Shown one piece after another: positions 8,216 through 30,083 of a DNA stretch of 64,000 bases. Below the pieces are notes generated by a model, which ran no database searches, had not been told where the DNA came from, and saw only the letters and a list, made by a program, of their open reading frames with translations. The DNA lies in contig JAOJYB010000002.1 in assembly GCA_028242535.1 (NCBI GenBank), positions 1-64,000 on the forward strand. Reading direction: 5' to 3'. Position numbers and translations under genes: made by a program. The stretch is from Candidatus Nitrosopelagicus sp. GTDB lineage: Archaea; Thermoproteota; Nitrososphaeria; Nitrososphaerales; Nitrosopumilaceae. How positions within the stretch are numbered: position 1 is the first letter of the stretch; every line of letters begins with the position of its first letter.

Positions 8216-8329
8216 TCAAAATTAGGTTATACTAACATAAACCGGCAAAAATGTATATTTTGTTTAATTGATATGTGTAACTTACCTATATCGAAAACTT
8301 ATAACCATACTGCGATCAAAAAACTATAG

Positions 8330-14684: not shown

Positions 14685-16157
14685 ATGAGCGATTTACAAA
14701 AACCTGAATCCGAATTAATCATTAATGAACAAAAAACTCCTGATTTGGAATTCCTGAAATTCTTTGACCCTACCACAATGAGCATTCATCTCAAAGAAAA
14801 TCAAAAACCTCTTGGCAAGAAAGGAATGCCTGGAAATTTTGAATTAGTTGAATTAGATACAAAAACACTTGACCGTGATTATCTTGAAATTATAACATCA
14901 CAAATTTTGGCATCCATTGATGATGAAACACTTGGTAATACAGAAATCTCAAAACCTGGTGCTTTGGTAATACAGTATAGAGATTATCGAATTGCCATCA
15001 CACGACCTCCATTTTCTGAACTTTTAGAAATTACAATAGTTCATCCAATTAAACAAATGTCATTAGAGGATTATCATCTATCTGAGAAACTAATGTCAAG
15101 ATTGGAACAACAAGCAGAAGGAATTCTAATCTCTGGGGCTCCTGGTTCTGGAAAAAGTACACTTGCATCGGGAATTGCAAACTTCTTCAATAGAACTGGA
15201 AATATTGTAAAAACTTTTGAATCTCCACGTGACTTACAAGTTGATCCTGGAGTAACTCAGTATACTAGATTGGATGGAAGTTTTGAAAACTCGGCTGATA
15301 TTTTATTGCTTGTTAGGCCTGATTACACAATATTTGATGAGGTTCGACGAAGAGAAGATTTTAGAATTTTTAGTGATCTTAGATTAACTGGTGTTGGTAT
15401 GGTTGGGGTTGTTCATGCAAATACTCCGATTGATGCAATTCAAAGATTTATTGGAAAAATTGAACTTGGAATTATTCCAAATGTACTGGATACTGTCATT
15501 TATGTAAAGGATGGAGGAATCTCCAAAGTTTATGATTTGGAATTAAAGGTAAAGGTCCCATCTGGAATGGTTGAACAGGATTTGGCACGTCCTGTCATTG
15601 AAATATCTGATTTTGAAACTAACCGTTTGGAATATGAAATCTATACATTTGGTGAGGAAAATATCATAATTCCTGTAACTGAAAACGGTTCACAAAAATC
15701 TGGTATTGAACATTTAGCTGAAGAAAAAATTCTGGATAGATTATATAGATTTGATCCACACCCAAAAATTGAATTTCTTACTCCTGGAAGAATCAAGGTC
15801 TTTGTTTCAAGAGACTCAATTCCATCATTGATTGGTAAGGCTGGAAAAACCATCCAAGAATTAGAAAAATCTCTTGGTTTACACATTGATGTTGAAGAGC
15901 ATGTAGCACAACAAGAACTTCCGTCTCAGGCTTTATCATATGATTTTTCTGAATCTGGAACCGCCTTGGTATTTGAGGTGGATAGACAGTACACTGGAAA
16001 TACTGCAAGCTTTGTTGTAAACGATGAATTTCTTTTTTCATCTAGAATTGGTAAAAAAGGTAAAATTAGAATCTTGAAACGTTCTGCCGAGGGTAAACGT
16101 TTTTCTAGATTTGTTAACACCAATGATAATTTGGAAATATTTCTTAAAACTCATTAA
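14685..16157 (+). CDS. PilT-like ATPase with C-terminal KH domain (COG1855-like, no PIN domain)
   Basis: Walker A GAPGSGKST, DILLLVRPDYTIFDEVRR, GVGMVGVVHANTPIDAIQRFIG, KH-like SLIGKAGKTIQELEKSLGLHIDVEE. Confidence 0.9.
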   Translation: MSDLQKPESELIINEQKTPDLEFLKFFDPTTMSIHLKENQKPLGKKGMPGNFELVELDTKTLDRDYLEIITSQILASIDDETLGNTEISKPGALVIQYRDYRIAITRPPFSELLEITIVHPIKQMSLEDYHLSEKLMSRLEQQAEGILISGAPGSGKSTLASGIANFFNRTGNIVKTFESPRDLQVDPGVTQYTRLDGSFENSADILLLVRPDYTIFDEVRRREDFRIFSDLRLTGVGMVGVVHANTPIDAIQRFIGKIELGIIPNVLDTVIYVKDGGISKVYDLELKVKVPSGMVEQDLARPVIEISDFETNRLEYEIYTFGEENIIIPVTENGSQKSGIEHLAEEKILDRLYRFDPHPKIEFLTPGRIKVFVSRDSIPSLIGKAGKTIQELEKSLGLHIDVEEHVAQQELPSQALSYDFSESGTALVFEVDRQYTGNTASFVVNDEFLFSSRIGKKGKIRILKRSAEGKRFSRFVNTNDNLEIFLKTH

Positions 16158-16605
16158 AACTGTTAAGCACTTTAGGATTTGCTTTGAAGAATGTTACAAA
16201 TTTCCTAATCTGTCTAATTGTTTTTGGGTTTAGATAATGTTCTATTCCTTCTGCATCTTGATTTGCAATATCTTTCCCAATTCCTAAAATTTCGAAAAAT
16301 TCAAGTAAAATTCCATGCTTCTGCTTTATTATGTCTGCAATACGTTGGCCTTCTACTGTTAAATTAATCCCATAATACTTTTCGTATATTAAATATCCAT
16401 CAGCATCTAATTTTTTTAGCATTTTTGTTACACTTGGGGCGCTAACGTTCATGTATCTTGAAATATCAAGTGTTGCTGCATATCCCTTCATATCTACTAA
16501 TTCTGATATTACTTCTAGATAGTCTTCTACTCTTGATGAAATTGCTTTCTCTGATTCATGTGCTGCTTTGATTGAATCTAACCTACGTGAAATCTTGTTT
16601 TTCAT
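16144..16605 (-). CDS. DtxR/MntR-family metal-dependent transcriptional regulator
   Basis: VEDYLEVISELVDMKGYAATLDISRYMNVSAPSVTKMLKKLDADGYLIYEKYYGINLT; HTH and GIEHYL metal-site region. Confidence 0.9.
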   Translation of the reverse strand: MKNKISRRLDSIKAAHESEKAISSRVEDYLEVISELVDMKGYAATLDISRYMNVSAPSVTKMLKKLDADGYLIYEKYYGINLTVEGQRIADIIKQKHGILLEFFEILGIGKDIANQDAEGIEHYLNPKTIRQIRKFVTFFKANPKVLNSFNEF

Positions 16606-18277: not shown

Positions 18278-18347
18278 GAAAAATTACCACTAATTGGATA
18301 TTAAAATTCAGTGTACTTTTCATAATCATATTCTAATTAATTAGAAA

Positions 18348-18447
18348 GTGCCGTTAGCAACACTTCCAGTAGTTGACGACATGTATTCTGGTTTTAAATC
18401 AAAGCATGCGAATGCTGTGTCACTAACGGCATAAAGTAATTTTTTTT
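18348..18447 (+). ncRNA. Candidate structured RNA with closing stem, GNRA hairpin and 3' U-tract
   Basis: P1 TGCCGTTAG (18349-18357)/CTAACGGCA (18423-18431) plus flanking G-T wobble; ACAC/GTGT; AGCAT-GCGA-ATGCT (18403-18416); CCAG/CTGG; T-run about 18440-18447. Confidence 0.5.
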
Positions 18448-18482
18448 ATACAATAATTAAAACTAGTTTTGAACTTACAATT

Positions 18483-18504
18483 TTATTCTATGTTCTTAGA
18501 ATAA
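18483..18504. promoter_or_regulatory. Inverted-repeat operator upstream of phnD
   Basis: TTATTCTA-TGTTCT-TAGAATAA, perfect 8-bp arms; 20/22 identical to 19611-19632. Confidence 0.7.
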
Positions 18505-18555
18505 GAAATGAGAAGTTGTTATTAGTTTAATTAGCTTTGACTAAGCACATCGAAC

Positions 18556-19563
18556 ATGTCTAATGGAAAAATTGCAGGAATTGCTATTGGCACACTTGCC
18601 ATTGGTATTGCAATCGGATTTTTCATACCAACTGATTCTGGAATTGAACAAACTGCACCAGTACCTATGATGCAGACTGAATCAGTAGATTATGGTATTG
18701 ACAAAATAACAATTGGATTCATTCCTTCTGAGAAAGCAGATGAACTAACGCCAAAAGCTGAATCACTTGCACGCTTCTTAGAATCTGAATTTGATGGTAA
18801 AGTCGAAGTTGATATTGTTGTTCCATCTAATTATGAAACGATAATTGAGGGATTGAGATTTGGACATATCCATGCAGCATTTATGGATACAGGACCTGGC
18901 TGGATTGCACACGACAGAGCAAACGCTGAAGTTGTAATGGCTGAAGTAAAGAAAGGCAAAGTCGGATACTATGCAACAGTCTGGCAGAGAGCTGATTCTA
19001 ATTATTCATCTATTGATGAAGCAATTGGAAATAAAGTTGCATTCACTAGCATTACTGGCTCATCTGGATTCATCCGGCCAATCGGAACTCTTGTAGATCG
19101 TGGATTAATCACTGTTGAAGGTGACGATATAATTGCATTGAAACAAGCATTGGATAACTCATTTGAGTATCATGTATTTGGTGGTGGATACAAAGCTGCA
19201 CTAGAGTTACTTTTGAATGGTTCTGTAGAAATGGCATTTGGCTCTGATATAGCACCGGGAAAATATCTAACTCCAGACCAACAAGCACAACTCAAAAAAG
19301 TTGACACACTTGGATTAGTTCCATCTCACGTGTTTGTAGTTTCTGATGATCTATCATCTGAGACAAAACAACATTTGGTGGATTCTTTGGTTAAACTCAA
19401 TCACCAAGATAACAACCAAATCCTCAAAGATGTCTATGGCGCTGATGCATTGTTACCAACAACTGCTGAAATGCATATAGGAAACTTTGGACAATATCTT
19501 GATTTGTTGCCTGGAATTGAACAAGCAACATTTGATAAGAAAAACTACGACGCACCAAAATAA
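18556..19563 (+). CDS. phnD: Phosphonate/phosphite/phosphate-type ABC transporter substrate-binding protein
   Basis: N-terminal signal/TM, TIGFIPSEKADELTPKAESLARFLE, PhnD-like SITGSSGFIRP; followed by ATPase and permease. Confidence 0.88.
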   Translation: MSNGKIAGIAIGTLAIGIAIGFFIPTDSGIEQTAPVPMMQTESVDYGIDKITIGFIPSEKADELTPKAESLARFLESEFDGKVEVDIVVPSNYETIIEGLRFGHIHAAFMDTGPGWIAHDRANAEVVMAEVKKGKVGYYATVWQRADSNYSSIDEAIGNKVAFTSITGSSGFIRPIGTLVDRGLITVEGDDIIALKQALDNSFEYHVFGGGYKAALELLLNGSVEMAFGSDIAPGKYLTPDQQAQLKKVDTLGLVPSHVFVVSDDLSSETKQHLVDSLVKLNHQDNNQILKDVYGADALLPTTAEMHIGNFGQYLDLLPGIEQATFDKKNYDAPK

Positions 19564-19610
19564 TCATTTTCCTTTTTTTATTACTAATCAATTTTCTCAC
19601 GCACAAATTC

Positions 19611-19632
19611 TTATTCTATATTCTTAGAATGA
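19611..19632. promoter_or_regulatory. Inverted-repeat operator upstream of phnC
   Basis: TTATTCTA-TATTCT-TAGAATGA; same element as at 18483. Confidence 0.7.
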
Positions 19633-19689
19633 ATAATGGTTTCATCTAGATTTATTGCTTAGATCTCATTGACAAATTTTGAATAGTAG

Positions 19690-20499
19690 TTGGATATGAA
19701 AAAAAATACCTCAATTGCAACATTATCTATAATTCAGATGCGTGATGTATCTGCATCTTATGATTCACAAAATTTTGTACTGAAAAACGTATCAATGAAT
19801 GTAAAACGAGGAACTAATTATGCAATAGTTGGAGCGTCTGGTTCTGGAAAAACCACTCTGCTAAAACTGATGAATGGAATGATGATTCCAAGTAGCGGTG
19901 TTGTTTTGTATAATTATCAAAAACCAGATCTAAAAAATAAAGAATACAAAAAATCTATTGCTAAAATTGGTTATATTTCGCAAACCTTGGGTCTAGTAAA
20001 AAATTCTAGTGTTTTAGATAATGTCTTAATCGGTGCATTGCCTAGATTAAATGCGGTAAAATCATTCCTCAAAATGTTTCCTAAAGATGAAATTGATACT
20101 GCTCATGAAGTTCTAAATTTGGTAGGATTAGATACAAAATCAAATCGAAAAGTTCACATGTTGAGTGGTGGCGAAAAACGTCGTGTTGCGATTGCACGTG
20201 CATTGATGCAAAAACCTGATATTTTACTAGCTGATGAAATTGTATCTGAATTAGACTCTGTCACAGCTAGAGAAGTAATGGATGTCATAAAAGATGCACA
20301 AAGAAAATTCAAACTAACTGCAATCATGATACATCATGACATGAATCTTGCTCTTGAATATGCAAATAGGGTGGCGGTCATAAAAGATGGGGATAAAGTG
20401 CTTGAAATTGGTGTTGACGGTGAACAAATAATTGATTTTCAAACAGGTGATTTGACACAAGAAGAAATTATGGAGATGTACAATGAACCCAAAAAATAA
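19690..20499 (+). CDS. phnC: Phosphonate-type ABC transporter ATP-binding protein (possible ATG start 19696)
   Basis: GASGSGKTTLLK, LSGGEKRRVAIARAL, Walker B ILLADEIVSELD. Confidence 0.9.
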   Translation: MDMKKNTSIATLSIIQMRDVSASYDSQNFVLKNVSMNVKRGTNYAIVGASGSGKTTLLKLMNGMMIPSSGVVLYNYQKPDLKNKEYKKSIAKIGYISQTLGLVKNSSVLDNVLIGALPRLNAVKSFLKMFPKDEIDTAHEVLNLVGLDTKSNRKVHMLSGGEKRRVAIARALMQKPDILLADEIVSELDSVTAREVMDVIKDAQRKFKLTAIMIHHDMNLALEYANRVAVIKDGDKVLEIGVDGEQIIDFQTGDLTQEEIMEMYNEPKK

Positions 20500-21274
20500 T
20501 CTTCTAATCGGTGCAATAATTGCAGTCGTAGTTGTAATGTCTTATGATGTTGGAGTTGATCCTATTGCATTTGTCGACGGTTTACCAAATCTTGGAATTG
20601 TTCTAAAAGAGATGACTGAATTTGAATCTGAACATTGGGGAATTGCATTCTGGGCAATGCTTGAAACAATTGAAATGGCATTTATTGGAACACTTGCTGG
20701 CGTTATGATTTCATTACCTCTTAGTATTTTTGCTGCTAGAAATATTTCTAGCAAATATGTCTACGTACCATTACGTGCGTTATTAGCTGCAACAAGAACA
20801 TTTCCTTCTATCTTGTGGGCAATTCTTTTTGTAATTATGGTGGGCCTGGGACCTTTTGCAGGAATTCTTGCTATTACCCTCTATACAATTGGATTCATTA
20901 GTAAATTACAATACGAATCAATCGAAGCTATTGACTATGATCCTGTGGAAGCAACCACTGCTATAGGTTTATCAAAAATTCAATTAATTCGTTATGTCAT
21001 AATCCCTGAATCTGCACCTCATCTCTTAAGTCAAATTTTGTACATGTTTGATTATAATGTAAGACAGACAAGTATACTTGGAATTGTAGGTGCCGGTGGA
21101 ATTGGTTTTTACATAATTAATTATATCAAGTTCTTTGAATATGGAAAAGCAGCAGTTTTCATGCTGGTAGTTTTAATTGCAGTTCTTGCAATTGATTGGA
21201 TTAGTGTAAAGATTCGTGACCGTTACATCATGAAAGCACAACACGGGCAACAAGTTAAAGTTAAAACAAATTAA
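20483..21274 (+). CDS. phnE: Phosphonate-type ABC transporter permease
   Basis: RTFPSILWAILFVIMVGLGPFAGILAI, EAIDYDPVEATTAIGLSKIQLIRYVIIPESAP, GAGGIGF. Confidence 0.92.
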   Translation: MNPKNNLLIGAIIAVVVVMSYDVGVDPIAFVDGLPNLGIVLKEMTEFESEHWGIAFWAMLETIEMAFIGTLAGVMISLPLSIFAARNISSKYVYVPLRALLAATRTFPSILWAILFVIMVGLGPFAGILAITLYTIGFISKLQYESIEAIDYDPVEATTAIGLSKIQLIRYVIIPESAPHLLSQILYMFDYNVRQTSILGIVGAGGIGFYIINYIKFFEYGKAAVFMLVVLIAVLAIDWISVKIRDRYIMKAQHGQQVKVKTN

Positions 21275-30006: not shown

Positions 30007-30083
30007 TTAGGTAAGACTAATAATATTTACATAAAATTAGGTAAAACTAACTAATTATTACAAAAAAACTTAGGAAAACCTAA
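30007..30083. promoter_or_regulatory. Three phased TTAG-N6-CTAA dyads in a divergent promoter
   Basis: TTAGGTAAGACTAA (30007-30020), TTAGGTAAAACTAA (30037-30050), TTAGGAAAACCTAA (30070-30083). Confidence 0.7.

Follow-up and report, generated by a model that had tools for sequence, protein, structure and literature searches.

A predicted minus-strand small RNA gene beside phnD in Candidatus Nitrosopelagicus and its possible co-regulation with iron uptake

Nitrosopelagicus ranks with the most abundant nitrifiers in the upper ocean. No small regulatory RNA of this lineage is described in the literature that we searched. In the 64,000-nt stretch of Candidatus Nitrosopelagicus sp. analysed here (the window), the interval between a gene for a 112-aa protein and a phnD-like gene contains a strongly paired element. 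The first-pass annotation read this element on the plus strand, as an independent small RNA or as a cis-acting leader of phnD, with a U-rich terminator and a possible response to phosphorus. The questions raised by the locus are which strand carries the RNA, whether the RNA has a gene of its own and with which genes it is regulated.

The reading we prefer, to which comparative sequence analysis lends a probability of about 0.6, is that the minus strand contains a gene, present in one copy, which would produce a structured small RNA of ~90 nt from its own TATA-like box, that palindromic sites would switch it together with uptake genes, probably at low iron, and that the RNA would act in trans. 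Because its strand, 5′ end, structure and promoter are all predicted (Table 1), this RNA can be sought in existing strand-specific transcriptomes.

Table 1. Features of the RNA locus and its surroundings, in window coordinates
Feature	Position	Strand	Basis or remark
Small RNA gene, ~85–90 nt	18343–18434	minus	Predicted 5′ end near 18432, predicted 3′ end near 18343–18347
P1 helix, 5′ strand, UGCCGUUAG-UG-ACAC	18417–18431	minus	Partner is 18349–18363
P1 helix, 3′ strand, GUGU-UG-CUAACGGCA	18349–18363	minus	Strand comparison and pairing counts
P2 hairpin, AGCAU UCGC AUGCU	18403–18416	minus	Folds
P3 arm CCAG/CUGG, conserved 18-nt loop AAUACAUGUCGUCAACUA	18366–18391	minus	Folds and alignment
TATA-like box of the RNA promoter, TTTTAATTATT	18452–18462	minus	Core invariant in 17 genomes
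Palindromic site ATTCTATGTTCTTAGAAT	18485–18502		Flanked by the divergent promoters of the RNA and phnD
Palindrome TTCTAATTAATTAGAA	18331–18346		Part of the 112-aa gene's promoter; ~40 nt upstream of its TATA box (18299–18306)
Same palindrome, before phnC	19613–19630		
DtxR/IdeR-like box TTAGCTTTGACTAA (TTAG-N6-CTAA)	18531–18544		Near phnD start
Small conserved protein, 112 aa	17939–18277	minus	No Pfam or NCBIfam match
phnD-like substrate-binding protein	18556–19563	plus	PF12974, 124.6 bits; divergent to the RNA
phnC	19690–20499	plus	TIGR02315, under its cut-off
phnE	20483–21274	plus	TIGR01097, over its cut-off
DtxR-type regulator gene	16144–16605		2 kb away

Strand and fold of the RNA

The pairing arms described in the first-pass annotation are all present, namely GTGCCGTTAG/CTAACGGCAT at positions 18348–18357/18423–18432, ACAC/GTGT, CCAG (positions 18366–18369)/CTGG (positions 18388–18391) and the AGCAT-GCGA-ATGCT hairpin, and no long ORF spans the structure, as had also been noted. 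The GNRA loop of that hairpin is not conserved in relatives. The fold beats chance on both strands (z = −3.87 for the plus strand and −3.71 for the minus strand), and none of 200 shuffles equals it.

Since Watson–Crick pairs are identical on both strands, the G-U pairs decide between them. In the P1 helix of the 17 sequences that we collected, the plus strand gives 193 Watson–Crick, 2 G-U and 49 mismatched cells, and the minus strand gives 193, 43 and 8, respectively. Expressed as paired cells of helix 1, the values are 97.3% for the minus strand versus 80.6% for the plus strand; overall, 94.5% of cells are paired. An invariant CA/CA 2 × 2 internal loop breaks the stem of the plus strand and becomes a tandem U·G/G·U step on the minus strand, where the helix is continuous over 15 bp, and at the helix base U-A changes to U·G in part of the main clade of sequences, a change that on the plus strand would read C·A. 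The plus-strand assignment made at first pass thus fails, and with it neither the phnD cis-leader nor the plus-strand U-tract terminator is supported.

The check for covariation that had been proposed came out positively: three P1 pairs are altered on both sides (G-C to A-U, C-G to U-A and A-U to U-A), and the covariation score is higher than in all 500 shuffles. The signal is modest because most P1 pairs never vary.

On the minus strand, the 15-bp helix joins the 5′ and 3′ ends of the RNA, and P2 and P3 branch off from it in most genomes. The three-way junction reported earlier is not the minimum-energy fold of the plus strand; it is, according to individual folds, the minus-strand fold in the window and in most main-clade genomes. 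By sequence, 14 loci make up a main clade, and the other three (L015, L017 and L029) form a variant clade whose P3 region contains an insertion. The P3 arm is remodelled in the variant clade, and in one further locus (L006) the P2 hairpin is re-formed with a different stem, CAAAG/CUUUG. In the middle segment of the three variant sequences, UUGUCG/CGACAA could pair alternatively with the P2 and P3 regions, and on this basis we regard their inner fold as remodelled.

The TATA-like box of the RNA has the form TTTTAAT(A/T)ATT on the minus strand in 17 of 17 genomes and, in the window, stands 29–30 nt before the AUG-like 5′ end. The distance from the start of the box to CCGUUAG is 31–34 nt in these genomes, with a spacer that is poorly conserved in sequence and nearly constant in length. 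The same spacing of 29–30 nt separates the TATA box of the 112-aa gene from its ATG, suggesting that the mRNA of this gene is leaderless, and the corresponding distance for phnD is ~30 nt.

Occurrence among genomes and known RNA classes

A DNA search provided the first relatives within the genus, and with the covariance model R1 the RNA was then recognised in a total of 17 out of 31 Nitrosopelagicus genomes (E from 1e-15 to 1e-24). With the model R2, 400 genomes of the order from 66 genera gave no match outside Nitrosopelagicus. The search across Nitrosopumilaceae that had been suggested at first pass therefore succeeded within the genus only; among the 250 family genomes searched, matches outside it are weak (L058–L064), and all of them were rejected as lying in coding sequence, one in a ferredoxin gene. 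Viral contigs and an Ornithinibacillus contig carry the core pattern and give no match to the covariance model. The locus is a putative conserved small RNA gene restricted to the open-ocean ammonia-oxidising archaea (AOA) Nitrosopelagicus.

The locus is the sole full-query match in its own genome, and the covariance model matches once per genome, which speaks against a mobile hairpin or MITE. A weak BLAST match to query positions 34–68 in many genomes was considered as a trace of paralogous copies and discarded; it looks protein-coding and lacks the helix.

In an Rfam scan of the window, two rRNAs alone passed the cut-off, and the RNA locus matched no family. The best sub-threshold match at the locus was to the C/D family SNORD49, on the plus strand, with 15.2 bits against a gathering score of 37. 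C/D box RNAs have a C box (RUGAUGA) and a D box (CUGA) that flank a short terminal stem. The SNORD49 match is on the wrong strand, both boxes are absent from the minus-strand sequence, and the ends of the present RNA are joined by the 15-bp helix instead. H/ACA RNAs are hairpins with a pseudouridylation pocket, a K-turn and an ANA box 3′ of the stem; the minus-strand sequence, as read, has no internal pocket, and its stem is not directly followed by ANA. As for stand-alone small RNAs of archaea, we found computationally a promoter-like box of its own and a conserved structure without a conserved ORF. The predicted RNA would be an archaeal intergenic small RNA outside every named family.

Palindromic sites and the putative regulon

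The window contains three copies of the palindrome TTCTA-N6-TAGAA, where 0.12 are expected. The copy between the divergent promoters lies upstream of both TATA boxes, at a distance of ~39 nt for the RNA and ~40 nt for phnD. Its own genome contains 10 exact matches, among which only the three at the RNA locus are intergenic with promoter context; the seven others fall within coding sequence and were set aside. Genomes that have the RNA and lack phnD carry a degenerate palindrome with unchanged spacing to the RNA TATA box. Many relatives have a degenerate site by the RNA, and four loci (L002, L006, L015 and L029) have their recognisable palindrome ~12 nt further out, making its role for the RNA less certain there. 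In phn-bearing genomes, the palindrome by the RNA could serve phnD alone.

In over half of the RNA-bearing genomes, a gene for an FTR1 iron permease replaces phnDCE behind a like palindrome, which lies ~29 nt from the TATA box. This neighbour is a 744-aa iron permease fusion (L135:4055–6289) and occupies the slot that corresponds to positions 18556–21274 of the window. Among the 31 Nitrosopelagicus genomes, FTR1 is present in 10 and phnD in 17, and the two never occur together. The probability of this exclusion by chance is 2e-5 if the genomes are taken as independent and complete, and 0.01 for genomes at least 80% complete, both values being too small owing to shared ancestry.

Exact copies of the motif ATTCTANNTTCTTAGAAT were found in 32 of 250 family genomes, Nitrosopelagicus included, with one control match. 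In other genera of Nitrosopumilaceae it precedes, in several cases, sufB- and sufC-like genes, named by eye (L159, L177, L178, L179, L181 and L183–L186), so that a possible Fe-S/iron regulon may lie behind the suf-associated palindrome; other sites are near a ferredoxin or TFB gene. A sufB query recovered the expected family of close homologues in Nitrosopelagicus, whose promoters (L189–L211) have no palindrome and carry TTAG...CCTA repeats just before the TATA box; the suf link therefore depends on the other genera.

A second type of site, TTAG-N6-CTAA, is found near the start in all 14 phnD promoters examined and resembles the DtxR/IdeR box TTAGGTTAGSCTAACCTAA (PMC10317159). The window contains six such boxes versus 1.1 expected. 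Three stand in tandem at positions 30007–30083, before a gene for a 96-aa membrane protein that is divergent from a cold-shock-type gene, and another (positions 8222–8235) lies between a Thi4-like gene and a gene resembling sirohaem nitrite/sulfite reductases. It should be noted that in genomes lacking the RNA (L091–L100) phnD (~370 aa) is found elsewhere and differs in its N-terminal region, which is signal-peptide-like; here too, the palindrome and a TTAG-N6-CTAA box precede the gene.

For the transporter regulon of the RNA, iron appears more likely than phosphate because of the FTR1/phnD swap, the palindrome at sufB/sufC elsewhere and the DtxR-like box at phnD, of which the suf and DtxR links to iron are indirect. 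The phosphorus response proposed at first pass thus probably misjudged the trigger, the shared regulatory sites and the FTR1 swap pointing to iron or Fe-S instead. The palindrome in common, the fact that phnDCE and FTR1 exclude each other and the DtxR-like boxes also suggest an iron regulon for the "phosphonate" transporter of Nitrosopelagicus, a point of relevance to the question of its substrate. That substrate is already doubted, since AOA have no recognisable C-P lyase beside phnCDE and another substrate is possible (PMC7490402), and iron uptake in N. maritimus has been assigned to generalist metal transporters (PMC6776035). A regulon of an equally independent minus-strand RNA that answers to phosphate or another nutrient would fit a co-regulated transporter of PhnDCE type and the phosphate-starvation precedent of haloarchaeal sRNA132 (PMC6560208), but we consider it unlikely in view of the missing C-P lyase, the FTR1 permease in the same slot and the suf- and DtxR-associated sites.

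According to the preferred reading, an activator at the palindromes would turn on the uptake genes and the RNA jointly, with iron shortage as the probable inducing condition and phosphate shortage as the less likely one. The RNA would then act in trans, through base pairing of its conserved loops or through protein binding, and would adjust other mRNAs; our guess is that the loops AAUACAUGUCGUCAACUA and CUUUGAUCUAAAACC would do the pairing. A pairing screen over the 64 window genes gave no significant conserved target. The strongest candidate that we followed, the phnC start with the P3 loop, reached −14.8 kcal/mol versus a shuffled best of −14.0 kcal/mol and was rejected because relatives do not keep this pairing.

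The closest precedent that we found, sRNA132 of Haloferax volcanii, is an intergenic small RNA of one archaeal genus with a BRE/TATA promoter of its own, a downstream gene that has an independent promoter, a link to a nutrient ABC transporter operon and an experimentally shown action under phosphate starvation (PMC6560208). The present RNA is similar in being intergenic and confined to one genus, in its predicted promoter, in the independent promoter of the downstream gene and in its link to an ABC transporter; unlike sRNA132, it adjoins the transporter genes and has a palindrome in common with them. We place it among archaeal intergenic small RNAs and not with sRNA132, because the lineages are unrelated and the function here is predicted only, regulatory sites suggesting iron where phosphate was shown by experiment for sRNA132. 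The trans-acting sRNA257 of Sulfolobus solfataricus, which binds the 3′ UTR of its target, is likewise tied to a phosphate-type transporter gene (PMC6560208), whereas for the present RNA no conserved target was found among the window genes.

A functional parallel is offered by the iron-starvation small RNAs of the RyhB/PrrF type, which are bacterial, Fur-repressed and Hfq-dependent and which repress, through base pairing, the mRNAs for proteins that contain iron. They are expressed with iron-uptake genes, a feature that the present RNA would share if the suggested iron control holds; the likeness lies in the functional idea. It is a tentative proposal, which we rate as possible and somewhat doubtful, that the RNA serves AOA as an iron-starvation small RNA, an analogue of RyhB that arose within Nitrosopelagicus, is controlled by the palindrome together with iron uptake (FTR1 or a re-purposed PhnDCE-type transporter) and limits the use of iron in the open ocean.

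Separation from the neighbouring genes

The first-pass suggestion of an independent small RNA is supported by conservation in 17 genomes, by covariation, by promoter-like elements of its own and by its presence where phnD is absent. A rival reading is that the RNA is a cis-acting, for example riboswitch-like, leader of the 112-aa gene, with long transcripts from the RNA promoter reading through. The RNA adjoins this gene on the same strand wherever a contig shows both, and the T-rich tract that follows P1 on the minus strand is weak in the main clade. Against this, the tract is strong in the variant clade, whose three members have TATTTTTTC immediately after the helix, and between the RNA and the gene lie a palindrome and an invariant TATA box that are the gene's own. 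Gene and promoter also occur where the RNA is missing: in G012 the gene keeps the palindrome and TATA box, in G029 it is divergent from phnD around one palindrome with no RNA between, and R2 finds no RNA match in either genome. On the other side, phnD is missing in 11 of the 17 RNA-bearing genomes, and the RNA is kept where FTR1 stands in place of phnDCE. As G012 and G029 lack the RNA and the RNA persists without phnDCE, a separate gene is favoured over a leader of either neighbour; the leader reading for the 112-aa gene appears improbable.

A plus-strand small RNA or phnD leader, terminated at a U-tract and responsive to phosphate, agrees with the window itself, in which the stem is followed by eight Ts (positions 18441–18448) and then by phnD, and one variable site (columns 16/106 in L011 and L014) favours that strand. 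It is nevertheless very unlikely given the mismatches counted above and the frequent absence of phnD. The T-run, present as first described, is not conserved in relatives, and the plus strand has no TATA box at the right distance; the perfectly conserved ATTAAAA that lies upstream of the paired element on this strand, a candidate for such a promoter, is really the TATA box of the 112-aa gene. At the window locus R2 scores 108.9 bits on the minus and 15.8 bits on the plus strand, values that restate the pairing counts and are no separate test, since the model was built from the minus-strand alignment.

The least probable reading is a leaderless mini-protein (AUGCCGUUAGUGACA..., 10–36 codons) in place of the minus-strand RNA: main-clade loci do show an ATG where a leaderless start would be expected from the TATA box, but the ORF varies freely in length and sequence (10, 12, 25 and 36 codons). 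In the variant clade, ATA, CTA or TTA stands at this position, and the helix pair is retained through a G-C to A-U double change.
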